Shown: positions 7,054-37,350 of the stretch, piece by piece
How positions within the stretch are numbered: position 1 is the stretch's first letter
Layout: each line of letters starts with the position of its first letter
Source: a virus
DNA length: 37,652 nucleotides
Virus record (IMG/VR): IMGVR_UViG_3300009012_000007
Location: 1-37,652 of that record
Strand: one strand, 5' to 3'
Translations under genes and position numbers: made by a program
Notes under the pieces: model-generated
Told to the model about the DNA's origin: nothing
The model's input: only the letters and a program-made list of their open reading frames with translations
Databases searched by the model: none

Positions 7054-8852
7054 CCCTCTCCCTCCCCGACTTCCGCCGTTTCTGCGCCCGCCTCTCCATC
7101 CCGAGCCGGGACGAGGGCGTGATCCCGTTCACGCGGATGTACGGGACGCAGGACTATCTGCTCCAGGAGCTCGCGGCGGGACTGGAGGCGGGAGTGCACG
7201 AGTATGTGGTCCTGAAAGGCGGTCGCCAGATCGGGGGCACGACGATCGGCGAATCGCTCTCCATCTACTGGCTCCAGACCTATCCCGGCATGGTCGGGTG
7301 CTACACCTTCGACGACGACGAGAACCGCGACTTCCACCGAGACGTGCTCCTCCAGATGCTCGACTCGCTGCCGCGGGCCTACCGCTGGCCGACCCGGGTC
7401 AACAACCAGGGGCACCTCGCGTGGTCCGCCCCGAACCGCTCGCGTCTGATCTTCGCTGCGGCGGGCAAGCGGTTCAATCTCAAGTCGAACCTCGGCCGGT
7501 CGCGCGGCCTCAACTTCCGCATCGACGACGAGATCGGGGCCTGGAATAACGAGAAGGCGATCTCCTCGCTCAACGCCGCGTTCTCGAAACGCCATCCGCA
7601 TCGCTTCCGCATGTCGATCTCCACAGCGCAGGGGGCCGGGCCGTTCCGGGACATGTGGCGTACCGCGCAGACCGCCGTGAGCCAGCGCGCGATCTTTGTC
7701 GCGTGGTGGCGCAGAGAGGACTTCCGCATCGACCCGAGCGAAACGGCGATGTGGGACCGCTACGGGGAGGAGCCGCCCTCGAGCGAGGAGCGCGAGTGGA
7801 TGGACGCGGTGGCCGAGCGGTACGAGGTGGTCATCACGCAGGAGCAGGTCGCGTGGTATCGCTGGACGCTCGCGGAGGAGTTCTTCGGCGACACCGCGAT
7901 GATGGACCAGGAGTACGGCTCGCTCCCCGAGCAGTGCTTCGTCGCGTTCGGAGATCGGATCATCGGCCGCGAGACGATCAAGCGCCTCCAGCGAGATCTC
8001 GCCAAGGCCCCCAACCCCGCAACGTATCGCTGCGACTTCGGGACATCGCTCGATACGATGCGCCTCGATCTCAACCCGGAGGGCCAGCTTCGGATCTGGG
8101 AGCAGCCCGACCCGCAGGGCGTCTACGTCGTCTCCGCGCACCCGGCGCGCTCCTCCGATCCCGATGCCGCATCCTTCGTCTGCCAAGTCTGGCGCGCCTG
8201 GGCGGATGAACTGATTCAGGTCGCCGAGTATGCGTCGTACGAGGGGTCGATGTACCAGTTCGCGTGGCTCGCGATGAATCTCGCCGCGGCCTACCGCTTC
8301 CGCGTCCCGGCCTTCTTCGCGCTCGAGGTCGGCACGGTCGGCAAGTACGTGCTCGCGGAGATCCAGCGGATTCAGAATTACGGCTACGGGCTCTCGCCGT
8401 CGGCGGTGAATAACAGGGATGTCAGGAACGTGATCGGCAACATCCAGCACTTCCAGTACGTCCGCCCTGACCAGGCCACCGTCCGCTCTGCCCCCCTCGG
8501 CTGGAAGATGTCCGCCGAGATTCGCCCCTGGATCATCCACCAGCTTCGTGATGAAATCGAGCGGGGACACGTCGTCATCCGCTCGCCGGAGCTGATCGAC
8601 GGGCTCGATGGCCTCCGGCGCGGGGAGGAGGGGGACGCGGACGTGATTGAGGCGGGGGGCGTGTCGGATGATAGCCGGGTGGTGACAGCAAGTTACGCCG
8701 TCGAACACTGGCTCAGGAACGCGCTCCCCACGGTCCACGTCCTCGCCGGCCAGAAGCGCCCGGATCGGTGGGCGCCAAAGACGGTGGAGGGGAGGCTTGT
8801 GGGGAACTATCTCCAGGGGGTCATGCAGAAGGGGAGGCCGAGGAGTGCTTGA
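7050..8852 (+). CDS. terL: Terminase large subunit
   Basis: The 600-residue ATP-driven DNA packaging motor contains a Walker A-type loop L-K-G-G-R-Q-I-G-G-T-T (about 55-65), a Walker B-type strand F-R-I-D-D-E-I-G-A (about 155-163), and a C-terminal nuclease-like region starting at Y-V-V-S-A-H-P-A-R-S-S-D-P-D-A-A-S-F (about 357). The usual first catalytic Asp of the V-D-P-A motif appears as His here, while the later D-x-D and a downstream F-A-L-E-V-G-T-V-G motif are kept. The TTG at 7050 overlaps the upstream stop (TTGA); a GTG at 7032 is the alternative. The protein would dock on the portal at the prohead and cut concatemers or genome ends. Confidence 0.85.
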   Translation: MTLSLPDFRRFCARLSIPSRDEGVIPFTRMYGTQDYLLQELAAGLEAGVHEYVVLKGGRQIGGTTIGESLSIYWLQTYPGMVGCYTFDDDENRDFHRDVLLQMLDSLPRAYRWPTRVNNQGHLAWSAPNRSRLIFAAAGKRFNLKSNLGRSRGLNFRIDDEIGAWNNEKAISSLNAAFSKRHPHRFRMSISTAQGAGPFRDMWRTAQTAVSQRAIFVAWWRREDFRIDPSETAMWDRYGEEPPSSEEREWMDAVAERYEVVITQEQVAWYRWTLAEEFFGDTAMMDQEYGSLPEQCFVAFGDRIIGRETIKRLQRDLAKAPNPATYRCDFGTSLDTMRLDLNPEGQLRIWEQPDPQGVYVVSAHPARSSDPDAASFVCQVWRAWADELIQVAEYASYEGSMYQFAWLAMNLAAAYRFRVPAFFALEVGTVGKYVLAEIQRIQNYGYGLSPSAVNNRDVRNVIGNIQHFQYVRPDQATVRSAPLGWKMSAEIRPWIIHQLRDEIERGHVVIRSPELIDGLDGLRRGEEGDADVIEAGGVSDDSRVVTASYAVEHWLRNALPTVHVLAGQKRPDRWAPKTVEGRLVGNYLQGVMQKGRPRSA

Positions 8853-9168: not shown

Positions 9169-9665
9169 CCCCCCGCGCCGATTTCGTCTGCAACGCCAAG
9201 CGCTGCCGCCAAGAGGACGGCTCCGCCCCGGTCTACGAGTTGCCCGTCTCCGCGACCCGCTGTAGCGTCTGCGGCTCGAAGCGGATTGTGAGGCTCTACA
9301 ACTCCGTCCAAATCTCCACCGAAGGCCACAACATCGCCCGCCGCGTGGATGGGATCACCCAGCAAGCCTGGGAGGAGCAGCGCGCGTCTCAGGTCTTGGC
9401 CCGCGACGCCACCGCCCGCTGGGGGCCGCTCAAGGTCGTGCCGACGCGTGCCGTGCCCCAGGCCCTCGCCAACACCTTCGGGGAATTCGGCGCGCCCCAC
9501 ATCGCCAACCAGGTCGCCGCGAGTGCGGGGCAGCAGTACAAGCAGACGGGGTCTCGGCCCGATCCGCAGCGCGTTCCTACTGACGTCCTGCCGGTGAGGC
9601 AGCCGCCGGCGATGAAGGAGGGGTCGAAGGTCGATCGGCGGTATCGGAGGGCGGTGAGGGAGTGA
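9165..9665 (+). CDS. FmdB-like zinc-ribbon protein
   Basis: This 166-residue protein begins with a zinc ribbon, C-N-A-K-R-C ... Y-E-L-P-V ... C-S-V-C-G-S-K (residues 9-40), of the FmdB type often found near terminase and portal genes in phages. The remaining 125 residues are polar and probably disordered. It is coupled on both sides (ATGA, GTGA). A role in packaging or morphogenesis is inferred from position only. Confidence 0.6.
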   Translation: MTPRADFVCNAKRCRQEDGSAPVYELPVSATRCSVCGSKRIVRLYNSVQISTEGHNIARRVDGITQQAWEEQRASQVLARDATARWGPLKVVPTRAVPQALANTFGEFGAPHIANQVAASAGQQYKQTGSRPDPQRVPTDVLPVRQPPAMKEGSKVDRRYRRAVRE

Positions 9666-9877
9666 GCCGAAGAACGCCGATGCCGCGTAAGAGGCTCCCA
9701 CGACCGTGCGACAACGAAGAGTGTCGCGCGATCACGCCCAACGGCTGCTCGGTGAACGTCAGGCTCCATATGTGCCAAGCGTGCGCTCGACGTCTGATGC
9801 TTGAGACCGCCACGCTGCTCGTCATCGTCCGGGACTATGCGCGCCCCGATGAAGTTCGTCGCGAGTCGGTCCCATGA
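9662..9877 (+). CDS. Small basic zinc-binding protein
   Basis: This 71-residue protein has an Arg/Lys-rich start (P-R-K-R-L-P-R-P) and then C-D-N-E-E-C and C-Q-A-C, a four-Cys zinc site, followed by a hydrophobic helix (L-E-T-A-T-L-L-V-I-V). GTG start overlapping the previous stop. Unknown function. Confidence 0.55.
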   Translation: MSRRTPMPRKRLPRPCDNEECRAITPNGCSVNVRLHMCQACARRLMLETATLLVIVRDYARPDEVRRESVP

Positions 9878-10620
9878 GCCTCCGCGACTACCTCTTCTAC
9901 GAGGAGTCCGGGATCACGCTCTACTGCGGAGACTCTCGAAAAATCCTGCCTGATCTCCTCGGTCCATTTCAGTGTACGTCCTACTGCTTTGAGGAATGCT
10001 CGAGCCGTTGCGTTCTCGGCCCTGTCGTGATCCTTGCCGATCCGCCTTATGGCATCAGCATAGTTTCTGGCTCCGCCGTCGGCGGAGCCAAGCCGTTCGG
10101 CACGATCGGCGGTCCTGTCATTGCGCCGACGAATACTTACATGCCGGTCTTCGGGGACGATGGGCCGTTCGATCCGTCGTGGCTCCTCAAACTCTCAGTG
10201 CCTACGATCCTGTGGGGGGCCAACCACTACGCTGATCGGCTCCCGTCCTCGCCAACGTGGCTTGTCTGGGATAAGAGAACGAGGGACTACAGCAACAACT
10301 TCGCCGACTGCGAACTGGCGTGGACGAACCTCGGCGGACCAGCTCGGATGTTCCGGCATGAGTGGAATGGTCTGATGCGTGAGAGTGAGCGCGACCGCCG
10401 AGTGCATCCGACCCAGAAGCCCGTCCAGCTCTACGAGTGGATTCTCAATGAGTTGATCCCGCCTTCGGCATTGGTCGTAGACCCCTATATGGGCTCCGGA
10501 CCGAGTCTCGAGGCCGCCAAACTCCTGGGGCGCCGCGCCATCGGCATCGAGATCGAGCCGAAGTACTGCGAGATCGCGGTGAAGCGGCTCCGGCAGGAAG
10601 TGCTCACCTTCCCCACCTAG
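9874..10620 (+). CDS. DNA amino-methyltransferase (N6-adenine or N4-cytosine type)
   Basis: This 248-residue SAM-dependent methyltransferase has motif IV L-A-D-P-P-Y-G early (about residue 53) and motif I V-V-D-P-Y-M-G-S-G (about 205-213) late, with G-I-E-I-E-P-K-Y-C-E-I-A after it. This order is that of the beta class, with H-P-T-Q-K-P (motif X) just before motif I. It probably modifies phage DNA against host restriction, together with the cytosine methyltransferase at 5149. The start overlaps the upstream stop (ATGA). A strong 9-bp hairpin lies in the coding sequence at 10069-10089. Residues 30-50 contain an unusual Cys cluster (C-T-S-Y-C-F-E-E-C). Confidence 0.8.
   Translation: MSLRDYLFYEESGITLYCGDSRKILPDLLGPFQCTSYCFEECSSRCVLGPVVILADPPYGISIVSGSAVGGAKPFGTIGGPVIAPTNTYMPVFGDDGPFDPSWLLKLSVPTILWGANHYADRLPSSPTWLVWDKRTRDYSNNFADCELAWTNLGGPARMFRHEWNGLMRESERDRRVHPTQKPVQLYEWILNELIPPSALVVDPYMGSGPSLEAAKLLGRRAIGIEIEPKYCEIAVKRLRQEVLTFPT
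10069..10089 (+). other. Perfect 9-bp hairpin inside the amino-methyltransferase gene
   Basis: GGCTCCGCC-GTC-GGCGGAGCC forms an uninterrupted 9-bp stem with a 3-nt loop just downstream of the D-P-P-Y codons. No T-run follows, so it is not a typical intrinsic terminator. It may slow translation or bind a protein, or be incidental. Confidence 0.6.
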
Positions 10621-14036: not shown

Positions 14037-14448
14037 CCTCCTCGCACGGATCGGCGAGCTCGAAGCGACGATCAAGGAGATGAAGCGGCGCCCCGCGAAC
14101 CAGTTGGGCGGCGACATCCAGCAGGCGTCCTACTCGAGCGACCACCACGGCACGCCCGTCCCGCTCTCGGTGAAGGGCCTCCTGAAGAAGGGCGTCAAGA
14201 AGCAGACGATCCAGGCGGCGATGAAGTCGGCGGGCCTCGGCGGCACGGTCGGCGATGACGGAACGGTGGCGGGCTTCCAGTGCCCGGACTACCCCGACTG
14301 CCTCGCGACGGGCTCGTCTCCGCACTGCGTCGGGATCACCTACGGGACCTCGGTCCACGTCCCGAACTGCACCGTCTTTCACGACGCGGTCGCCCCGCTC
14401 GAGCCCTCCTCTGAGCGCGTCATCGTGACGCAGGTGCAGGCGCCCTGA
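14020..14448 (+). CDS. Hypothetical head-region protein with coiled-coil N-terminus
   Basis: This 142-residue protein has an N-terminal helix (D-L-L-A-R-I-G-E-L-E-A-T-I-K-E-M-K) and a Cys-containing beta-rich C-terminal half (C-P-D-Y-P-D-C ... H-C-V-G-I ... C-T-V-F-H). It overlaps the scaffold-like gene by 1 bp. A virion or assembly protein by position only. Confidence 0.55.
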   Translation: MPEKDDLLARIGELEATIKEMKRRPANQLGGDIQQASYSSDHHGTPVPLSVKGLLKKGVKKQTIQAAMKSAGLGGTVGDDGTVAGFQCPDYPDCLATGSSPHCVGITYGTSVHVPNCTVFHDAVAPLEPSSERVIVTQVQAP

Positions 14449-15095
14449 TGGCTGAGCCGATCGTCGCCGAACCCGGCAAGCCCGCGCCGACGCCCGAGCA
14501 GCAACAGCAGCGCGTCGAGGCGGAGCGTCGCCTGGCCAACCTCCTCTGGAACGACCCCGAGACCGGCCCCGAGATGCGGAAGCTCGTGGAGAAGGTCGCC
14601 CCGGGCTCCCTCCCGATGGCGGAGATGCGCCAGGCCGCGGAGCGCGAGCGGGCGAAGACCCTCGAGGAAGTCCGAAAAGAGCGCGAGGAGTGGAAGCGAG
14701 AGCGCGAGGCGGAGATGCAGAGCCGCTCGCGCGAGGCCGCCCATCAGAAGCTGAAGGCCCAGGGCTACTCGGACGGGGACATCGAGCGGATCGAGAAACT
14801 CATGATCGAGCGTCTGACGGCGGACTACGAAGTCGCCGCGAACTACTACAAGACGCAGAACCAGGTCGGCACGCCGCGCTCCTCCTCCCTCGTGACCGAA
14901 CTCCCCGGCATCCAGGGGGCGGGCGGCGACTACTTCGTGAAGGCGGCGGGCGGGGGCCCTGGCATCGGCGAGGGCGAGGGCCGCTCGGTCGGGCGCCAGT
15001 GGGCCTTGAAGCGCGCGTACAAGGACCTCGAGGACCTGAAGGCCGGGCGGCCGCTCGACCCGGCCCCGTGGGATGTCCAGCAGGGGAGGCAGTGA
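14448..15095 (+). CDS. Scaffold-like protein
   Basis: This 215-residue protein has an acidic, Pro/Gln-rich start. Residues 60-110 form a long charged coiled coil (E-R-A-K-T-L-E-E-V-R-K-E-R-E-E-W-K-R-E-R), followed by a Gly-rich linker and a basic C-terminal helix near 185-200. This layout (coiled coil plus basic C-terminal helix) and the position before the capsid gene fit a head scaffolding protein that is removed on maturation. The stop overlaps the next ATG. Confidence 0.6.
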   Translation: MAEPIVAEPGKPAPTPEQQQQRVEAERRLANLLWNDPETGPEMRKLVEKVAPGSLPMAEMRQAAERERAKTLEEVRKEREEWKREREAEMQSRSREAAHQKLKAQGYSDGDIERIEKLMIERLTADYEVAANYYKTQNQVGTPRSSSLVTELPGIQGAGGDYFVKAAGGGPGIGEGEGRSVGRQWALKRAYKDLEDLKAGRPLDPAPWDVQQGRQ

Positions 15096-15883
15096 TGGCC
15101 AGAGGAGGACGTATGCGACGCTTCCGACTGATCGCGTGGGTGCTGATCGCAGCGTTGCTCCTCGACTGGTCGCCGCTTCCTGAATTCCTGCCGGACGACG
15201 TGACGCAGGCGGCGGCCCAGACGCCGGCCGTGACCGTCATCGGCCCCGCCGGGACGCTCTACTACTCGACGGCGTCCGTCGTCCTCGCGAACGCCGCGCA
15301 GGGCGGGACGAGCATCTTCGCGATCGTCATCCCGGGCGCGATGTTCGCGACGCAGGCGGCGGCGAACACGACCTCGACCATGGGAGTCGGCACGCCGACC
15401 CTCGGCCCCCTCAATAGCTCGATCCCGCTCCACCTGCAGATCGCGGGGCTGCTCGATACGGGGGCCACGCCCGGGACCCTCAACATCGGCGTGAACTTCG
15501 GTCAGGGCACCACGACCAACCCCTCGGCCGCCAACCCGTTCATCGCGACCATCGCCCTCGCGAACGCGGTCACGCCGACGGTCTCCCTCGTGGGCACGCC
15601 GTTCCGTCTCGATGTGCGGCTCTCCCCGATCGCGACCGGCAACATGACGAACCTCGCCTCGGCGGGGAACGCAACGCCGAATATCGTCAACACCGTGTTC
15701 ATGGAGGGGCGGCTCGAGTACTCCGGCGGCGGGACGCCGGCGTCCATGATGATCCTGAACGCGGCGACGATCGCCCAGGTCAACATCGCCTCCGCCCACA
15801 TCCTGAACGTCCTCTGGGGCTTCGGGTCGGCGGGGCCGAACTACCTCCGCGTGTACAAGATCCTCTTGAAGCAGGGCGAGTAG
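15095..15883 (+). CDS. Putative exported head-region protein
   Basis: This 262-residue protein starts at ATG 15095 (coupled) or ATG 15113 (after GAGGAGG). The N-terminus has R-R-F-R followed by hydrophobic L-I-A-W-V-L-I-A-A-L-L-L and, later, a possible A-A-A-Q cleavage site, like a signal peptide or membrane anchor. The rest is rich in Thr, Ala, Gly and Asn with short beta strands and no other membrane segment, like a beta-sandwich decoration or coat-associated protein. It lies between scaffold and capsid genes. A head protein with an export signal is unexpected. Function unknown. Confidence 0.55.
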   Translation: MARGGRMRRFRLIAWVLIAALLLDWSPLPEFLPDDVTQAAAQTPAVTVIGPAGTLYYSTASVVLANAAQGGTSIFAIVIPGAMFATQAAANTTSTMGVGTPTLGPLNSSIPLHLQIAGLLDTGATPGTLNIGVNFGQGTTTNPSAANPFIATIALANAVTPTVSLVGTPFRLDVRLSPIATGNMTNLASAGNATPNIVNTVFMEGRLEYSGGGTPASMMILNAATIAQVNIASAHILNVLWGFGSAGPNYLRVYKILLKQGE

Positions 15884-15886
15884 CGG

Positions 15887-17074
15887 ATGGCGCGAGCCTG
15901 GCCGCTGATCCTCGCGGGTGCCCTCGTGGCCCCCTTTGTCACGTGGCTCCCGATGCTGGCCCAGCAGGCCCCGAAGCTCGGGCTCCCGCAGTACCCGATC
16001 GTCCAGGGCATCGAGCTCTGGTGGCTCCAGGCGTTCTACCTGGTCGCTCTCGGCGTCCTCGGCACGATGATCTGGCGTGAAGGGGATCGCTGGCTCGGGA
16101 TGGCGGTGGGGCTCGCAGGCGTGACCGTCTTCTACCGCGGGGCGACGCTTGGGGCGACCCTGGATCAATTCGGCAGTGTGACGCTTGGCCCAGCGCACAC
16201 GGCCGTGTTCGCGCTGGGTGCGGTGATGCTCGTGGCCGTTCGCCACACGCCCGAGCACTGGCGCCCTCATCTCGCCAGCCTCCTCGCTGCACTCGGCGCG
16301 TTTCAAGTCGTCTACGTCTTCCACCAGCTCGCGGGCTACGACGTGCTCTGGGGGCGCTTCGACGGGGGCAGGCTAGGGCTTGTGCAGCCGATCGGGACGC
16401 TGGCGGGAGTCGATAGCGTCTCCGCCTACATCGCGATCCTCGCCCCGCTCATGCCGCTCTGGTGCCTTCCGCTCGCGATCTTGGCGGTCTGGATGGGGCA
16501 CTCCCTGTCGGCGCTGCTGGCGCTGGCGGTGGGGCTCTGTGTGCGCTATCGCCCAGCCGTCCCGAGTCTTCAAATCCCCGGTATTCCAGGGCTAGGCTTC
16601 GTATTGACAACCGCTGCGACTAGCGTCGCCGTCCTCGCCTTCCTCTCCATGCTCTACCTCAAGGGCCTCGCGACGCCCGCCGTCGCCTCCCGCTTCGCCG
16701 TCTGGAAGTTCGGGTTGAAGCACGCGGCGGTCTACGACCCTGTCCTTGGCTGGGGCCTGGGCGGCTGGGTGAATCACGTGCCCCTCCTCCAGGTCCACGA
16801 GAAGTTCCTGCCGTTTGGGGCGAATGAACTCTGGCGGGAAGCGCACTCCGAGCCGATCCAGTGGCTCACCGAGTGCGGACTCATCGGCGGGATCCTTCTC
16901 GTCGGCTGGCTCTGGACCCATCGCGCGATGTTCGTTCATCCGGTCTGGGGCGGGAGCGTCAGCGCCTTGGCCGCGAACTCGCTCGGGTTCTTTCCCTTTC
17001 ACGTCGTCCCGATCTCCCTCGTTGGCTTGATCGTGGTCGGACTCGCCACCTCTCGGATGCAGGAGGCCACATGA
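15887..17074 (+). CDS. O-antigen ligase/polymerase-like membrane protein (Wzy_C family-like)
   Basis: This 395-residue polytopic inner-membrane protein has about 10-12 hydrophobic helices. A larger soluble loop (about residues 265-325) contains R-F-A-V-W-K-F-G-L-K, then P-V-L-G-W-G-L-G-G-W, then R-E-A-H-S-E-P-I-Q-W-L-T-E-C-G-L-I-G-G. That arrangement (Arg early in the loop, G-x-G motif, H-x-x-x-x-x-x-x-x-E-x-G-x-x-G at its end) is the signature of WaaL ligases and Wzy polymerases, which join glycans on undecaprenyl or lipid A in the periplasmic leaflet. It is coupled to the capsid gene (TGA inside ATGATG). A role in changing the host surface glycan or decorating virion proteins is inference. 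No start ambiguity is seen. Confidence 0.65.
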   Translation: MARAWPLILAGALVAPFVTWLPMLAQQAPKLGLPQYPIVQGIELWWLQAFYLVALGVLGTMIWREGDRWLGMAVGLAGVTVFYRGATLGATLDQFGSVTLGPAHTAVFALGAVMLVAVRHTPEHWRPHLASLLAALGAFQVVYVFHQLAGYDVLWGRFDGGRLGLVQPIGTLAGVDSVSAYIAILAPLMPLWCLPLAILAVWMGHSLSALLALAVGLCVRYRPAVPSLQIPGIPGLGFVLTTAATSVAVLAFLSMLYLKGLATPAVASRFAVWKFGLKHAAVYDPVLGWGLGGWVNHVPLLQVHEKFLPFGANELWREAHSEPIQWLTECGLIGGILLVGWLWTHRAMFVHPVWGGSVSALAANSLGFFPFHVVPISLVGLIVVGLATSRMQEAT

Positions 17075-18180
17075 TGCGCTGGGAACTGAGACTCGGCTTC
17101 TCGCTCGCGGTCCTCCTCGCCGCCCTGTGGGCGGGTCTCGACTGGCAGACGCTCGGGCTGCTCGCGTTCGGTGTCCTCACGGGGACGGGCATCGTGCCGA
17201 CTGGCGCGGTGGGCACGGAACTTACCGCGGTCACGCGCCGCGCATTCGTCCCGCGAGTCCCCGTGCAGATCTATAAGGCCACGGCGATTCTGAGCGCCGG
17301 CCTCGCCAACGCGCAGACGGCGAGCGGGGGCGTCTCCTCGGTCACCGTCCCCGTGCAGGGCTCGCCCTTCGTCCAGGCCCAGGCGACGGACTACACGGGC
17401 GCCTTCAACCAGCCCGCCGTGCAGACCGGCATCACCGAGGCGGATTTCAACCTGAAGGCCGTCATCGTGCCGATCCCCTTCCTCGGGATGGAGGGCATCC
17501 TCCAGATGAACGCGGCCGTCATCCCGCTGATCGAAGCCAGGATGAACGACGCGGGGAACCAGATCGCCGATTACCTCGCGACCCAGCAGATGTCGAACGG
17601 CACCTACGGGACGATCAACGTGGACGGCTTCCCGCTGATCGCCTCGACCTCCCGGACCTACGGGAACATCTCGAGCGCCTCCCCGAACACTTGGTGGAAC
17701 GCGAACGTGATGGGCTCGGCGGGCACCGTCGCCCCCACGCGGAAGCTCATCAACCAGATGGTCGTGTCGGCGACGAAGGCCGCGGGCGGTGAAGCGCCGA
17801 ACATCGGCGTGTGCGGGCCCGGCACGTGGGCGCTCCTCGCCAACGACTTCATCGGGTCGGAGACCTACTTCATCACGCCGGGGAGTAGCTTCGATCAGAG
17901 TGCGCAGGGGGCGAGGGCGAGCTTTACGGCGCTCATGGTGGCGGGAGTCCCGATCTACCAGGACCTCTACATGCCGGAGGGGCAGTTCATTTTCTTCAAC
18001 ACCCGCTACTACAGCTTCTACATCCACGAGGCGGCGGCGTTCGCGTTCACTGGGTTTGCGAGCACGTTACCCAATTTTGCCCTTGGGTATGTTGGGGCGC
18101 TGATTGTCGTGCTCGAAGGAATATGTGTCAAACCGAGCACGTTCACCTCCCAAAGCGGGTTCACGAATCTCGTGGTCTAG
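17071..18180 (+). CDS. Major capsid protein with hydrophobic N-terminal extension
   Basis: This 369-residue protein has a core from about residue 50 (T-E-L-T-A-V-T-R-R-A-F-V-P-R) with A-Q-T-A-S-G-G-V-S-S-V-T-V-P-V-Q-G, T-Y-G-N-I ... N-T-W-W, and G-T-W-A-L-L-A-N-D-F, as in HK97-fold major capsid proteins of podovirus-like phages. The first 45 residues add two hydrophobic stretches (L-G-F-S-L-A-V-L-L-A-A-L-W-A-G and T-L-G-L-L-A-F-G-V-L), not expected in a capsid protein. The ATG at 17071 is coupled to the upstream membrane protein. A GTG at 17194 would give a conventional 328-residue capsid protein, so the extension could be real or an upstream artefact of start choice. Confidence 0.75.
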   Translation: MMRWELRLGFSLAVLLAALWAGLDWQTLGLLAFGVLTGTGIVPTGAVGTELTAVTRRAFVPRVPVQIYKATAILSAGLANAQTASGGVSSVTVPVQGSPFVQAQATDYTGAFNQPAVQTGITEADFNLKAVIVPIPFLGMEGILQMNAAVIPLIEARMNDAGNQIADYLATQQMSNGTYGTINVDGFPLIASTSRTYGNISSASPNTWWNANVMGSAGTVAPTRKLINQMVVSATKAAGGEAPNIGVCGPGTWALLANDFIGSETYFITPGSSFDQSAQGARASFTALMVAGVPIYQDLYMPEGQFIFFNTRYYSFYIHEAAAFAFTGFASTLPNFALGYVGALIVVLEGICVKPSTFTSQSGFTNLVV

Positions 18181-18197: not shown

Positions 18198-18755
18198 ATG
18201 GATCAAGAGTTATCGTGGCGCGAGCAGAAAATAGCAGCGGCGTGGTTCTTCAACGGCGAGGGCTGCACCGGACTCTATAGCAGTCGTACCGGAACGCCGA
18301 GGCGGTGGACGCGAGTACCGCGCATCATGATCTCGCAGAAGGATCCGCGCGTCCTCGAACAATTTCGGACATTCGTCGGCGGCCTCGGCCATATCTACCA
18401 TCGTCCCGCACGTCATGGCCACAACGTAATCAGCGACTACACGCTCGGCAATCACGAGAAGGTTCAGGCCGTGATTGCGATGCTCTGGAACTGGCTCAGT
18501 GAGCAGAAGCGCGAACAGGCTAGCCGCGTCCTGACTGACCTCAAGGCTTATCAGCGATCACATCGCAATCGCTCGAAGTATCGAACTCACTGTCCGCGCG
18601 GCCATCCCTACAACGAGACGAACACGAAACTCCGAACCGACAAGCAGGGCGTGACTCGTCGTCACTGTCTCGCCTGTGAACGATTCCATTCTCTGAAAAC
18701 GTGGCCGGGCGGGCGAAAGTTGTTGACTGCCTCCGCCCTCCTCGAGGCCGTCTAG
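18198..18755 (+). CDS. LAGLIDADG-type homing endonuclease with C-terminal zinc finger
   Basis: This 185-residue protein has A-A-W-F-F-N-G-E-G-C-T near residue 14, the single-motif LAGLIDADG signature (helix plus acidic Glu), followed by a beta-sheet half-domain. Residues about 134-164 form a second unit, C-P-R-G-H-P-Y-N-E-T-N ... C-L-A-C, a zinc finger often attached to phage homing endonucleases. With a single motif it would act as a dimer. It lies between capsid and tailspike genes without visibly interrupting either, so it is free-standing; the next gene overlaps its stop (TAGTG). Confidence 0.75.
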   Translation: MDQELSWREQKIAAAWFFNGEGCTGLYSSRTGTPRRWTRVPRIMISQKDPRVLEQFRTFVGGLGHIYHRPARHGHNVISDYTLGNHEKVQAVIAMLWNWLSEQKREQASRVLTDLKAYQRSHRNRSKYRTHCPRGHPYNETNTKLRTDKQGVTRRHCLACERFHSLKTWPGGRKLLTASALLEAV

Positions 18756-21646
18756 TGCGCCGACTAGGTCTGGCGGGCCTAGTCCTTCTGGGTCTAGTCC
18801 TCGCGAGTGCCCCCGCCTCCGCCATGCAGCGCCGCTCCTGGCTCTGCCAGTCGATCACCGGGGCCGCGATCCCCGCCTGCTCCATCACGGTCTACACGGC
18901 CGGCACCACGACGAAGGCGACGATCTACGGCGATCAGGCCGGCTCGTCATCCCTCGGCAACCCGATCACGGCGGGGAGCGACGGCACCTACGCCTACTAC
19001 GCGCCCTCCGGCCGCTACACCGAGGTCCTCTCCGCCCCTGGCTTCACCTTCGGCGCGGCGCAGACGCAGGACTTCATCCTCCACGATCCCTTCGCGATCC
19101 CAGCCGTCGCGCCCAACATCTTCGCCACGACGACCTGGCTCAACGCGACGCCGAACTGCGCCAATATCGCCTCGCCGACGACAGGAAAGACGTGGTGCTT
19201 CGATACCACGCCGACCCTCAAGGTGTGGAATGGGCGGGCCTTTGTGCCGCTCGCCGCGACCATCGCCGCGTGTGACAACGGGGGCGTGGTGGACGTGACG
19301 ACGTGTCTCCAGACGGCGATCAACCGCGCCGGGTTCGTCTCCCTCCCGGCCGGCACCTACAAAGTCTCCGCCACCTTGACCTTCCCGACGACCGCGCCGA
19401 CGATCCTCTCCGGGGCCGGGGTCGGCAACACGCTGATCCAGTGTACTCACAACGACGGGACCGACTGCGTCTCGATCTCGGGGGCGCTCAATAACATCTA
19501 TCACGAGCTCCGCGACCTGCAGATCGACTGCACCGCCGGCAACCTCGCCGCCGGGAACGGGCTCAACATCAACGGCGCGGCCAACGGCATCCCCGTCACC
19601 GTCCGCCACGTCTTCGTCTCCGACTGCCGGACGACCGGCAAAGCGGGGGTGAACCTCACGTCGAGCTTCAACGCCTTGTTTGATTCGCTGATCGTTACCG
19701 ACTCCTACTATGGCGTCCACCTGACGCTCTCGAACGCCAACATTTTCACGGCCGTGAACTTCTCCTCGAACGTCTACGGGGTCTACGTCGAGTCGAACTC
19801 GAACAGCAATATCTTCGCGGGCGGCGAGATCGCCAACGGGCCGACCCTCATCTACTGCAACGGGTTCTTTAACGACTTCAACGTCTACATCGAGAACGGC
19901 GGGCTCACGCAGCAGGGCGTCGCCAACGCCTTCGGGCCGACGGTCCAGTTCGATACGGCGTCCTTCCATAACCGCCTCGGGACCAAGACCTCCGGGGACG
20001 AGAAGATCCAGGACAAGGGGATCGGCAACCTCATCGTCTCGGCGAACAGCCCGAGCTACAACAACCTCCAGGCCCTTCAGTTCGCCTCGCCGTTCGTCTC
20101 CGGGCGCTCCGTCATCGCCAATAGCTTTTTCGACTCCTCCTTCGCCACGGCGGCGAACTTCGGCGGTGGCGGCGGGGGACTCGCGATCACGCAGGACACG
20201 ACGACGGGCGTGGTGGACGGCAACTCCCTAAAGCTCGCCTACGACGGCACGGCGCCGTCGAACGGCCTTGTGGCGACCTCGACCCAGACGTGGCTCGGGC
20301 TCACGGGCGAACTGATGACGGCCACCTTCTGGATCAAAGCCTCCCGCGACATGCTCGACACCGAGACGGCGCGGGCCTATTGGAACAACGACACCGGGGC
20401 GGCCGTGCTGCAGACCGCCTTCATCAAGGGGCTCAAGGCCGGGGTCTGGACGCCGGTCACGCTCGCGACCCGCCCGCTCGGGTCAAACATCACCATGAGC
20501 CTCCGGTTCCAGTTCAACGCCCCGACCGGGGCCTTCACGGCGATCAACCTGAACGTGGATGACGTACACGTAGAGAAGTTCCCCGTGGGGGCGAACGGGA
20601 CGGCCCAGGGCCCCGCGGGCTACGCCTATGTGCTGAATAATTCCACGGGCGCGACACGCACGCTCACGAACGCCGGGCTCTACGCGCCGAAGGCGACGAT
20701 CGACACGGTGACAGGGACTCTCTTAACCTTCACGGGCACGCCGGGCATCTCGACGCCGCTCTACTTCGGTCCATCAGCGGCGGGACCTGAGATCAACTAT
20801 GTGGGCAACATCTTCCAGTTTTCAGCAGGGACCTCGGGGCTCCGATTCGTGAACAGCTCCAACAGCATCGTGCTCGGGCTCTTCACCGATGGCGGCGGAC
20901 TCACGGTCGGGACCCCGACCGGGGGCGATAAGGGCCTCGGGACGATCAACATGGCGGGGAGCCTCTTCCTCCCCGACGGCACGGCGGCGGCGCCGGCATT
21001 TACATTTAGTTCTGACACGCAGACTGGAATATTCCGGCAGGGTGTCAATACTCTAAGCGTTGCTAACGCCGGGGTAGAACGGTTCCGTTTGGGGGGGAAT
21101 ACCCTCAACGTCAACGGCCATGTGGTCGTCGGTGGGGGTGGCTCGCTGCGGTGGGACGCGACCTTCCCCAACACGGGTGATCTCTTCCTTGCCCGCGACG
21201 CCGCCAACACCCTCGCCCTCAAGAACAGCACGAGCGCCAACACTCTCCGCGTCTACGGCACGACGACGGGGCCGAAGTACGTCGCCCTCGGGCATGATGG
21301 CTCGGACGCGAACCTCGCGGTCACTGGAGGCGGGGCGATCAACCTCACGGCGACTGCGGTCAACGTGAACGCCCTCCCGATCGCGACCATGCTCCTCACC
21401 AACGCGAGCGGGACGACGACGAACAACGCCCACATGGTGCAGGATACGGTCACACTGACGGGCGGGACGGCGGGGGTCGCCCTGGCGGGGAACGCGGCCT
21501 ATACCAACGCCACGAGCTACACGTGTGTCTGCGACAACGACACGGCCGTCCTTGCGTGCCGCGTCGTCCAGAACGGCGGCAACGGGTTCACGGTCACTTC
21601 AGGGGCCGGAACGGATGTCATCCGGTTTATTTGCGTGGGCAATTAG
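18755..21646 (+). CDS. Tailspike / pectate-lyase-fold receptor-binding protein with signal peptide
   Basis: This 963-residue protein has residues 1-23 forming a textbook signal peptide: R-R, hydrophobic L-G-L-A-G-L-V-L-L-G-L-V-L-A, then A-P-A-S-A. An N-terminal domain (about 25-110) with I-T-V-Y-T-A-G-T-T-T-K-A-T-I-Y-G-D resembles tail-attachment domains. A right-handed beta-helix region (about 185-390) of the pectate-lyase type follows, then a carbohydrate-binding-like beta-sandwich (about 450-610) and a fibre-like end with F-T-F-S-S-D-T-Q-T-G-I-F-R (about 750-765). Such spikes bind and may degrade host surface glycans. The GTG at 18755 overlaps the upstream stop; an ATG at 18824 right after the signal peptide would remove it, so the start is open, but the signal is too regular to be chance. 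Confidence 0.75.
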   Translation: MRRLGLAGLVLLGLVLASAPASAMQRRSWLCQSITGAAIPACSITVYTAGTTTKATIYGDQAGSSSLGNPITAGSDGTYAYYAPSGRYTEVLSAPGFTFGAAQTQDFILHDPFAIPAVAPNIFATTTWLNATPNCANIASPTTGKTWCFDTTPTLKVWNGRAFVPLAATIAACDNGGVVDVTTCLQTAINRAGFVSLPAGTYKVSATLTFPTTAPTILSGAGVGNTLIQCTHNDGTDCVSISGALNNIYHELRDLQIDCTAGNLAAGNGLNINGAANGIPVTVRHVFVSDCRTTGKAGVNLTSSFNALFDSLIVTDSYYGVHLTLSNANIFTAVNFSSNVYGVYVESNSNSNIFAGGEIANGPTLIYCNGFFNDFNVYIENGGLTQQGVANAFGPTVQFDTASFHNRLGTKTSGDEKIQDKGIGNLIVSANSPSYNNLQALQFASPFVSGRSVIANSFFDSSFATAANFGGGGGGLAITQDTTTGVVDGNSLKLAYDGTAPSNGLVATSTQTWLGLTGELMTATFWIKASRDMLDTETARAYWNNDTGAAVLQTAFIKGLKAGVWTPVTLATRPLGSNITMSLRFQFNAPTGAFTAINLNVDDVHVEKFPVGANGTAQGPAGYAYVLNNSTGATRTLTNAGLYAPKATIDTVTGTLLTFTGTPGISTPLYFGPSAAGPEINYVGNIFQFSAGTSGLRFVNSSNSIVLGLFTDGGGLTVGTPTGGDKGLGTINMAGSLFLPDGTAAAPAFTFSSDTQTGIFRQGVNTLSVANAGVERFRLGGNTLNVNGHVVVGGGGSLRWDATFPNTGDLFLARDAANTLALKNSTSANTLRVYGTTTGPKYVALGHDGSDANLAVTGGGAINLTATAVNVNALPIATMLLTNASGTTTNNAHMVQDTVTLTGGTAGVALAGNAAYTNATSYTCVCDNDTAVLACRVVQNGGNGFTVTSGAGTDVIRFICVGN

Positions 21647-21651
21647 GGGGG

Positions 21652-21957
21652 ATGAAGATGCGATTCCTGATCCTGCTGACGCTCGCCGTCCTGCTTGGCC
21701 TCGGTGGTGCCTCCGCCGCCCCTCTGACGAGTCCGATCACGACGACCGCGACGACCTACCAGCTCGCAGATGTCCAGGTCGATGTGACGAACTGCGTCGT
21801 CTCGTGGAATATCAACCTCGTGGACGCGGGGGGGGCGGTCGTCCGGTCGGTCCACCTCTCCGACACGTGCTCGGCCCTCGGGATCACGCCTGCCCAGCAG
21901 ACGGCGATCCAGAACGCCGTCATCGTCTATTCCAAGACGAAGGCGGCGATCAACTAG
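21652..21957 (+). CDS. Small protein with signal peptide, tail region
   Basis: This 101-residue protein has ATG 21652 or 21658 after a GGGGGG ribosome binding site. A clear signal peptide R-F-L-I-L-L-T-L-A-V-L-L-G-L-G-G-A-S-A (to about residue 23) is followed by a beta-rich mature part of about 78 residues with C-V-V-S-W-N-I-N-L-V-D and a second Cys that could form a disulfide. It lies between tailspike and adaptor. Function unknown; it may act with the exported spike. Confidence 0.65.
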   Translation: MKMRFLILLTLAVLLGLGGASAAPLTSPITTTATTYQLADVQVDVTNCVVSWNINLVDAGGAVVRSVHLSDTCSALGITPAQQTAIQNAVIVYSKTKAAIN

Positions 21958-25456: not shown

Positions 25457-25551
25457 TGGCACTCCTGGTCATCGCCGTCCTGCTCCTGTTCGCGGCGAGC
25501 GCCGCAGCCCTCCGCGCGATGATGTCGTGGGCCGGTCGGAGGGTGCGGTGA
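25453..25551 (+). CDS. 32-residue membrane micropeptide
   Basis: ATGATG overlaps the previous stop. The peptide is a single hydrophobic helix (L-L-V-I-A-V-L-L-L-F-A-A-S-A-A-A-L) with a basic end (R-R-V-R), and it is coupled by GTGA to the methyltransferase. It could be a membrane micropeptide or a secretion-like leader. Confidence 0.5.
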   Translation: MMALLVIAVLLLFAASAAALRAMMSWAGRRVR

Positions 25552-26099
25552 GGGACGCGCGAAGGATCTGGTACTGGCCCCCGCTCCATCACGGCGCGCG
25601 CGTGCTTGAGATCGGGAGCGGGGCCGGGGACTTCGCGCGTGCAGCGCGAGCACGGGGATGGAAGGTGGATACGCTGGAGCCTGCGGTGGGCGACCCGACC
25701 GCTGAAGCCTGGGCGGACACGGCCCCGCGTCAGCACTACGACGCGATCTTCGCGTGGCAGGTGCTCGAGCACCTCGAGCGGCCCGAGGATGTCCTGCGGG
25801 CGATCCGGCGCGCCCTGATCCCAGGCGGGTACTTCGTGCTCTCCGTGCCCTCAGCGCGCTCCGTCGAAGCGTGGGTAATGCGGGACCGCTGGGAGGCCCG
25901 CCATTCGGGACATCATCACGAGTGGACGCCAGGGACGCTCCGGAACTTCCTCCACTCCTTCGGCTTCACGCGCGTCCGAGTCATGCATCAGCGCATCGTC
26001 AAGCACGTCCGGGGGCCGTGGTGGTGGACGCTGGCCCTCGGGTGTCTGGTGGCGGCGCTCCGGATCTCCTCCCGGATTACGGTGGTGGCGCGGCCGTGA
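25548..26099 (+). CDS. SAM-dependent methyltransferase (class I, O-antigen-type)
   Basis: This 183-residue protein has motif I V-L-E-I-G-S-G-A-G-D-F (about 19-29), an acidic end L-E-P, then Y-D-A-I-F-A-W-Q-V-L-E-H-L (about 65-77) and G-G-Y-F-V-L-S-V-P. A hydrophobic C-terminal helix (W-W-W-T-L-A-L-G-C-L-V-A-A-L) may bind it to the membrane, as in methyltransferases of surface polysaccharide clusters. It lies two genes from a glycosyltransferase. Substrate unknown; a sugar or small molecule is more likely than DNA. Confidence 0.7.
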   Translation: MRDARRIWYWPPLHHGARVLEIGSGAGDFARAARARGWKVDTLEPAVGDPTAEAWADTAPRQHYDAIFAWQVLEHLERPEDVLRAIRRALIPGGYFVLSVPSARSVEAWVMRDRWEARHSGHHHEWTPGTLRNFLHSFGFTRVRVMHQRIVKHVRGPWWWTLALGCLVAALRISSRITVVARP

Positions 26100-26224
26100 G
26101 AGTCCTCGACTGGCTCTGGGAGATGAGCCTGCGGTGGCGGCGCTGGCGTGCGCGGTCCTGTCAATTTTGCGGCGCGCCCGCTCTCGATGAGCGCCGACTC
26201 TGCGCCGAGTGCGCGCTCCAATGA
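26096..26224 (+). CDS. Small zinc-finger protein
   Basis: This 42-residue protein with a basic Trp/Arg-rich start (W-R-R-W-R-A-R) and C-Q-F-C ... C-A-E-C is coupled on both sides. Function unknown. Confidence 0.5.
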   Translation: MRVLDWLWEMSLRWRRWRARSCQFCGAPALDERRLCAECALQ

Positions 26225-26868
26225 TCTACATTGCGATCCCGACCGTGACGCTACGCCTAGAGAATTGCGCCCGCTGGGCCATCGCGCGCACGACCCCCGA
26301 GCCCCATCGGGTCATCGTGGCGCGAGGACGAAGCCACGGGGAGAATCTCGACGCGGCGTTCGCCGGGCTGCCCGAGGATGCGGAGTTCATGTTCACGATG
26401 GACGACGACGCGGCGCCGCTCCGACTCGGCTGGCTCTCGTGGCTCGTGAGCATGATGGGCGACGACGTGTCGGCGGTGACCTTCGGGACCAACGCCGTCG
26501 TGGGGGCGCTCTATCGAGTCGGGGACATTCGCGGCAGATCGTTCCGACCGCGTCTGCGGATGAATCCGGGCGATGATCTTCTGTGGGACTTGGTGCGCCG
26601 GGTGATTCCTCGCGCGTCTGATGGCCCCTGGTGGCTCCGCAACTGCGAGGCGTATCGGGATGACGATGGGGAGTTGGTGTTCGGTCATTTGGGCGGCGGC
26701 ACCATCGGCCACACGTGGTATCACCAGGGCCGCCTCTACCCCCGCATCCCAACGTGGCTCTGGCCGGTGATGGTCAAACGGTATCTGCGGAGGCTCGGAC
26801 TCGGGGTGCCGGCGTCACTCGTGCACGGCCGCCCGCATGACGCGCGGATGGTCGGAGACCACCAGTGA
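26221..26868 (+). CDS. Glycosyltransferase (GT-A fold, family 2-like)
   Basis: This 215-residue protein has an N-terminal nucleotide-sugar region beginning I-A-I-P-T-V, a D-x-D-type metal motif in F-T-M-D-D-D-A-A-P (about residues 60-68), and a later H-L-G-G-G-T-I-G-H-T-W-Y-H. It is compact for the family. It probably transfers a sugar in the cytosol or at the inner membrane face. With the methyltransferase upstream and the O-antigen-ligase-like protein at 15887, a role in surface or virion glycan modification is inferred. The ATG at 26221 overlaps the upstream stop. Confidence 0.6.
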   Translation: MIYIAIPTVTLRLENCARWAIARTTPEPHRVIVARGRSHGENLDAAFAGLPEDAEFMFTMDDDAAPLRLGWLSWLVSMMGDDVSAVTFGTNAVVGALYRVGDIRGRSFRPRLRMNPGDDLLWDLVRRVIPRASDGPWWLRNCEAYRDDDGELVFGHLGGGTIGHTWYHQGRLYPRIPTWLWPVMVKRYLRRLGLGVPASLVHGRPHDARMVGDHQ

Positions 26869-36262: not shown

Positions 36263-36478
36263 ACCACGACGAGCTGCACCCTGGACTGGGTGCCCGTGGA
36301 CGGCGCCACCGAGTATGGTGTCTACCGTCTGAAGGGCCAGACCTGGGTGCTGGTGCAGACGATTGATAGCCCACCGGCGACGATCTTCCCTGGCAACGGG
36401 CGGCAGACGTGGGGCGTCGCGACGATTGGCTCTGGTGGGACCAGTGTCAAGACCCCGATCAGCATCAAGACGCAATGA
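36263..36478 (+). other. In-frame Fn3-like extension after a UGA stop
   Basis: This region stays open for 71 codons in the frame of the preceding gene, starting T-T-T-S-C-T-L-D-W-V-P-V-D-G-A-T-E-Y-G-V-Y-R and ending S-I-K-T-Q. The first strand (C-T-L-D-W) lies before the only nearby in-frame start (GTG 36290), so an independent gene would lack it. UGA readthrough, a nonsense mutation, or a sequence error would explain this equally well. A fresh GTG start is the fourth option. Confidence 0.55.
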
Positions 36479-37350
36479 TCCGCCGCCTGGTCGCGGTGCT
36501 CTTGATCGCGATGCCCGTCGAAGCGGGGGTCCTCTTCGACTCGAGTTGGGACACGGCGACTGGGACCGGGATCTCGGCGTTCACGGATGGAGGGCAATGG
36601 ACCGGGTACGTCCAGTGGGACACGCCGACGCCGACGATGGCGATCGTGACGGGCGGGCCGGGTGGCCACAACGCGCTCCGCGCGCAGCAGAACGGGCCGA
36701 TCTGGGGATCAGACGTCTGGAAGGCGAATGTGATCGGCGTCGGGCGGGACACCTACGTCCGCTTTTACTTCCGCTCGGACGACACCTCGGGCCCGGGCGA
36801 TCATGTCGCGACGGCGGGGACGATCGTCGGCGGTGCGGCGATCGAGAGCCTGACGTATCTCAGGAAGTACGGCAGCGCGTCCGGCTTTTACATGGCGCTC
36901 TCCAACTACGCCTGCGGGAACACGATCTGGCAGACGTGGCACTGGGGGCCGCCCAATCGGCTGGCGCTCGGCCGCTGGTATCGATTTGAGTATTGGGTCG
37001 AATGGGTGGACGCGACCCACGTGCGCGTGCATCCGCGCGTCTACGATGATGGGAACTCGCTGCTGTATGACGAGACGACGTTCGTCAACGGGGAGCCGCA
37101 AGATCGGCCGGCACTCTGGAACGGCCAGGCGTGGACCCTCGCGAAGTTCTACGCGGCCGGGAACACTTTCTGCGTGGATCCGGCGATGATGGTGTCGCTG
37201 GCGATGGGCAACAACGGGCAGGGGCAAGCGAGCGCGACGAAGCAGTTCTGGTACTTCTCATCGGTGCAGGTCCGCGACGACAGGTGGCCGGGGCCGATTG
37301 GAGGAACGACGGCGCCTCCGAGTGTGCCGAGTGGCGTCACGACGCAATGA
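36475..37350 (+). CDS. Secreted beta-sandwich protein (lectin/polysaccharide-lyase-like)
   Basis: This 291-residue protein has a signal peptide R-R-L-V-A-V-L-L-I-A-M-P-V-E-A (cleavage near residue 17). The mature domain is beta-rich with many aromatic residues: V-R-F-Y-F-R-S-D-D-T, W-Y-R-F-E-Y-W-V-E-W and F-W-Y-F-S-S-V-Q-V-R-D-D. This pattern resembles concanavalin/jelly-roll carbohydrate-binding or lyase domains. The C-terminus ends with a Pro-rich Fn3-like linker, P-S-V-P-S-G-V-T-T-Q. The ATG overlaps the upstream stop (ATGA). Substrate unknown; binding or cleaving a surface glycan is inferred. Confidence 0.6.
   Translation: MIRRLVAVLLIAMPVEAGVLFDSSWDTATGTGISAFTDGGQWTGYVQWDTPTPTMAIVTGGPGGHNALRAQQNGPIWGSDVWKANVIGVGRDTYVRFYFRSDDTSGPGDHVATAGTIVGGAAIESLTYLRKYGSASGFYMALSNYACGNTIWQTWHWGPPNRLALGRWYRFEYWVEWVDATHVRVHPRVYDDGNSLLYDETTFVNGEPQDRPALWNGQAWTLAKFYAAGNTFCVDPAMMVSLAMGNNGQGQASATKQFWYFSSVQVRDDRWPGPIGGTTAPPSVPSGVTTQ

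Follow-up and report, generated by a model that had tools for sequence, protein, structure and literature searches.

A Wzy_C-family membrane protein in the capsid operon of uncultured soil phages and its possible part in the glycosylation of virion proteins with predicted export signals

The DNA analysed here, referred to as the window, is the 37,652-nucleotide stretch that makes up positions 1 to 37,652 of the IMG/VR virus record IMGVR_UViG_3300009012_000007. An open reading frame at exactly 15887-17074 on the plus strand encodes a polytopic protein of 395 amino acids, which we call the enzyme (Table 1). It is preceded by the gene for a protein that we call deco and followed directly by the gene for the major capsid protein (MCP). 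The product of the gene in scaffold position upstream of deco gave no significant family match. Further upstream, between the terminase and portal genes, the window carries an N6/N4-type DNA methylase (PF01555, 9874-10620).

Table 1. Features of the window discussed in the text, with coordinates and the basis for each assignment
Position	Strand	Feature	Basis
14448..15095	+	Acidic coiled-coil-like protein, 215 aa, scaffold position	Two genes upstream of the enzyme in 9/9 lineages
15113..15883	+	Signal-peptide-bearing beta-sandwich protein (deco), proposed first substrate	N-terminus, model, position
15887..17074	+	Wzy_C-family (O-antigen ligase/polymerase/O-OTase) membrane protein (enzyme)	PF04932, invariant residues, dN/dS
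17071..17193	+	N-terminal extension of MCP: two hydrophobic segments (signal-like, then a second TM-like)	Sequence
17071..18180	+	MCP (major head protein), HK97-type, with hydrophobic N-terminal extension	phrog_9953, E 1.9e-23
18755..21646	+	Tail fibre/spike-like protein	phrog_28766 tail fiber, E 1.1e-5
21652..21957	+	Signal-peptide protein of 101 aa	
24371..25456	+	Tail-module protein, signal peptide before conserved GTxxVPN start	
25548..26099	+	Class I SAM methyltransferase	PF13489, E 2.4e-24
26221..26868	+	Weak candidate for a GT-A-like protein, with DDD motif	Only phrog_2456 glycosyltransferase, E 0.15
36475..37350	+	Late protein with signal peptide	phrog_287 (minor tail), weak match, E 0.22

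The original prediction had called the enzyme WaaL/Wzy-like on the strength of a loop signature, and named the lack of any ligase or polymerase match as grounds for giving that assignment up. A filter-free search matches it to the Pfam family PF04932 (Wzy_C, O-antigen ligase) with 35.7 bits against a cut-off of 31.7, so the family assignment stands. With default filters hmmscan returned nothing for the window enzyme, while the homologue from lineage L002, which is 89% identical, scored 33.2 bits in an ordinary hmmscan. Homologues were gathered by successive alignment searches of IMG/VR together with one metagenome-assembled genome (MAG) contig, giving nine lineages (the window, L002, L005, L010, L011/G004, L012/G005, L089 (VBID01000050.1), L110/G018 and L111/G019), and all nine enzymes attain the PF04932 cut-off. 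A profile search of PDB sequences with the enzyme found nothing, and no NCBIfam model matched above its cut-off, the nearest being TfpM, far below. A simple scan finds seven hydrophobic segments, and a low-confidence AlphaFold model (pLDDT 62.5) has approximately 15 helices; a Foldseek search with this model, built from a shallow alignment, gave no fold match.

The residues R269, G288, G290, H320, E322, E329, G331 and G334 are invariant across the nine homologues, and the predicted signature (R269, G288-x-G290, H320, E329-x-G331-x-x-G334) is therefore constant, with R269 and H320 placed between predicted helices. To map these positions the enzyme was aligned with Escherichia coli WaaL and remote bacterial members. 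Three WaaL residues, R215, R288 and H338, are of functional importance (PMC3643930), and two of the three are present in the phage enzyme: R288 corresponds to R269 and H338 to H320, both conserved. In the R215 column no phage homologue has an arginine, the residue being L, V or F instead (L207 in the window); a basic residue occupies position 205 in 9/9 homologues. The PglL_A motif (PF15864) gave no match over cut-off in eight records, and PilO likewise does not have it (PMC3643930).

In all nine lineages the enzyme gene lies between the deco gene and the MCP gene. The original prediction of translational coupling to the capsid gene stands in the window, where the two reading frames overlap in an ATGA (17071-17074) and a GGAGG precedes the ATG (17071/17074), but it does not extend to L002 and L089, where an HNH-type gene separates the two, or to L110, where two genes lie between them. 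The more constant neighbour of the enzyme is therefore the upstream signal-peptide protein (9/9) and not the MCP gene. HNH-type genes recur on both sides of the MCP gene (window 18327-18755; L002 7124-7420 and from 8905; L089 9151-9348).

Pairwise identity of the enzyme across the nine lineages ranges from 38 to 89% and closely follows that of MCP (Mantel r 0.88, with 0 of 5000 permutations as high). Among the three closest lineages the enzyme dN/dS is 0.20-0.27, and on the MCP tree the presence of the enzyme requires one change (support 88/84), which may be either a gain or a loss. The gene is inherited vertically, under purifying selection and at a fixed position. Morons of the lysogenic-conversion type are recognised by a place outside the late operon, patchy occurrence and free loss and gain; the enzyme gene does not show this pattern, and because of the single change on the MCP tree and the correlation with MCP we do not regard it as such a moron.

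The carriers of the capsid-operon enzyme are uncultured tailed phages from soil. Neither the enzyme nor deco was found in isolate phage genomes, so these include no cultured relative with the enzyme gene. In a sample of Chloroflexota the only close match to the enzyme was a phage contig, the remainder being remote Wzy_C proteins at no more than 38 bits. It had been proposed that homologues confined to bacterial chromosomes would make the gene an isolated insertion; its presence at the identical place in nine phage lineages rules out such an insertion from a bacterium. We also considered a Chloroflexi host on the basis of the MAG contig VBID01000050.1 and did not accept it, as the contig resembles a near-complete free phage genome and is possibly mis-binned.

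The N-terminus of deco has the hydrophobic n/h/c arrangement of a signal-like helix. Its model, of low-to-medium confidence (pLDDT 63), consists of beta-strands in a beta-sandwich, and by structure comparison it is similar to phage tail and decoration beta-sandwiches and to lectins. A deco homologue lies immediately upstream of the enzyme in every lineage, each time with a signal-like N-terminus. In L110 signal-peptide beta-sandwich genes are found on both sides of the enzyme (7409-7999 and 9406-10029), which suggests a duplication of the proposed substrate.

Signal peptides were called at all loci with one home-made heuristic, not SignalP, which overlooks clear cases such as deco of the window itself, so that the counts are lower bounds. 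Sec-type signal peptides were called in at least 28 of 78 genes near MCP in enzyme-positive loci, as opposed to none of 849 such genes in 109 loci that lack the enzyme (Fisher 5e-33, the loci being phylogenetically not independent). Composition is a confounder of this comparison, since most enzyme-negative relatives have 39-50% GC and only three negative loci are GC-rich; no signal peptides were called in those three. Within five long genomes, signal peptides occur in 31/111 late genes and in 0/57 genes upstream of deco. Their carriers are late proteins, mostly virion-like, and are richer in Ser/Thr (medians 0.20-0.23 versus 0.11-0.16). A textbook n/h/AxA pattern is seen in numerous genes of G004 (L092-L094), G005, G002 and G018 (L172-L173). 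A signal peptide is absent from some tail proteins in some lineages.

Two tail proteins of the window illustrate how the signal peptides are placed. A GTG start at 18755 gives the tail fibre/spike-like protein a signal peptide ending ASAPASA directly before MQRRSW, and in the L089 homologue the same MQRRSWLCQS follows another signal peptide. In five lineages the tail-module protein has a signal peptide; in two others (L010 and L110) it has a bare start at MPGSxxxPN, and these bare starts at the same conserved residues argue against false start codons. A profile of this protein found no homologues in enzyme-negative phages, and the comparison of forms with and without a signal peptide is therefore confined to members of the clade. 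A search of the papers available on signal peptides of tailed-phage virion proteins returned nothing relevant, which does not prove their absence.

The MCP itself has an N-terminal extension of two hydrophobic segments ahead of its conserved GTGIVP start in the window, L002 (7723-7860) and L089 (about 9730-9850), whereas the MCP of L005, L010, G004, G005, L110 and L111 begins at or near GTGIVP without one. If the first hydrophobic segment acts as a signal and the second as a transmembrane helix, this would leave the capsid domain cytoplasmic but membrane-anchored. An HK97-type capsid protein anchored in this way would, if true, be very unusual.

Genes for sugar synthesis recur in the clade. 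NeuB was found in 3/8 enzyme-positive records and in 0/18 of the negative records searched. G004 has a NeuB-like and cytidylyltransferase pair (L092 2108-4182), and G005 has NeuB (L096/L097, 37.8-40.1 kb) with an adjoining ORF that by eye resembles a cytidylyltransferase. The largest set lies in G019, on the minus strand between phage-like early genes (L174-L175, 10.8-23.6 kb), with genes for a second Wzy_C protein, a Gfo/Idh/MocA protein, NeuA-, NeuB- and NeuC-like (Epimerase_2) proteins, an epimerase/dehydratase, a DegT aminotransferase and a formyltransferase; judged by this gene content it is a nonulosonic-acid-like pathway. We identified no initiating (lipid-carrier) transferase and no flippase in the window. 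The original prediction hinted at two roles, attachment of glycan to virion proteins and remodelling of the host surface; signal peptides on predicted virion proteins, taken with nonulosonic acid (NulO)-type sugar genes, would raise the case for the first.

Our preferred reading, held tentatively, is that the enzyme is a phage membrane oligosaccharyltransferase that glycosylates exported virion proteins, deco first; it is preferred because the deco-enzyme layout is the same as that of an O-oligosaccharyltransferase beside its exported substrate. The phage would encode a glycan transferase of the Wzy_C superfamily whose catalytic loop, from the orientation we infer, faces the periplasm, and several outer virion proteins would be made with Sec signal peptides and sent out of the cytoplasm. 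A lipid-linked glycan, either that of the host or one made with the phage's own NeuA/NeuB-type enzymes if it has them, would then be moved en bloc onto the exported Ser/Thr-rich proteins, the first acceptor being the beta-sandwich product of the adjoining upstream gene. These proteins would still have to join virions. Tailed phages are understood to build their virions in the cytoplasm, and we know of no route by which exported proteins rejoin tailed virions built there. The proposed virion glycosyltransferases of mycobacteriophages are cytoplasmic. A fuller version, in which outer virion proteins (decoration, fibres, tail) are Sec-exported and glycosylated at the membrane by the Wzy_C enzyme, partly with phage-made nonulosonic acids, and the virion is completed extracytoplasmically or at the membrane, with MCP anchored there in one subclade, seems to us unlikely as a whole.

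Modification of a host glycan is possible and ranks close behind glycosylation of virion proteins. The enzyme would in this case ligate or polymerise an Und-PP-linked glycan of the host (O-antigen or similar) late in infection, keeping progeny from sticking to debris or excluding superinfecting phages, and the signal peptides would be a separate trait of the clade. The best known functions of Wzy_C proteins, those of WaaL and Wzy, are of this kind, and among phages the D3-type Wzy-beta changes the host O-antigen (PMC4815439) and VarioGold carries a similar gene (PMC9658991). The NulO sugars and the methyltransferase are as compatible with lipopolysaccharide as with protein, and the second Wzy_C gene, in the G019 sugar cluster, would be the more natural polymerase. 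However, a position in the structural operon implies late expression and scant time to remodel the host, and the 9/9 linkage to a signal-peptide protein, along with the signal peptides on virion proteins, would have to be due to chance.

It is also conceivable, but improbable, that a relative with the Wzy_C fold took on a part in assembly at the membrane, where it would tether or handle the virion proteins that bear signal peptides and hairpins, and does not transfer glycans. This would suit the strong divergence from bacterial members (best bacterial profile matches approximately 38 bits), the absence of one WaaL arginine and the hydrophobic N-terminal hairpin on the MCP of one subclade, but it leaves unexplained why the Arg, the His and E-x-G-x-x-G stay constant over 38-89% identity and why sugar genes recur in the clade. 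That the signal peptides are an artefact of start codons wrongly assigned in GC-rich DNA, with the enzyme an ordinary cargo gene fixed by chance, is very improbable: the GC confounding described above leaves room for it, but the three GC-rich enzyme-negative loci and the 57 upstream genes of enzyme-positive genomes have none, the signal peptides stop at the start points of their homologues, those of the window, L002 and L089 vary in sequence while being of the same type, and a strong GGAGG lies ahead of the long starts.

The enzyme family is a known one, but we found no precedent for its setting in a capsid operon. The enzyme shares with WaaL a Wzy_C domain over the PF04932 cut-off, the equivalents of R288 and H338 and a conserved HNxxL/ExG region; it differs in having no R215 equivalent and in lying in a capsid operon, with no LPS locus around it. 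With the O-oligosaccharyltransferases PglL, PilO and TfpO it shares the superfamily and a gene adjoining that for an exported Ser/Thr-rich protein (here a predicted one), as PglL homologues lie beside pilin-type genes in 21 of 31 cases and PilO is also beside a pilin (PMC3643930). Unlike them it has no PglL_A motif, and the place of the pilin is taken by a phage protein with a beta-sandwich.

A phage-borne Wzy_C protein is common to D3 (Wzy-beta) and VarioGold (VG_p25), and the gene adjoining VG_p25 also codes for a signal-peptide protein. The genes of D3 and VarioGold are morons outside the late operon, whereas the enzyme gene here is inherited vertically between deco and MCP. In VarioGold the moron in question, an O-antigen-ligase gene, is carried on the opposite strand (PMC9658991), in agreement with the original remark that serotype-converting phages normally have genes of this kind away from the structural operon. 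Glycosylation of virion proteins by phage-encoded enzymes has been proposed in mycobacteriophages such as Maravista (PMC11256854), by glycosyltransferases in that case, whereas here a membrane Wzy_C enzyme would act on exported proteins. If true, the preferred reading, glycosylation of exported virion proteins, would mean two-compartment assembly and a new route of virion glycosylation, with a bearing on adsorption, stability and recognition. Even with the host as target, fixation in the capsid operon sets this gene apart from known serotype-conversion genes.
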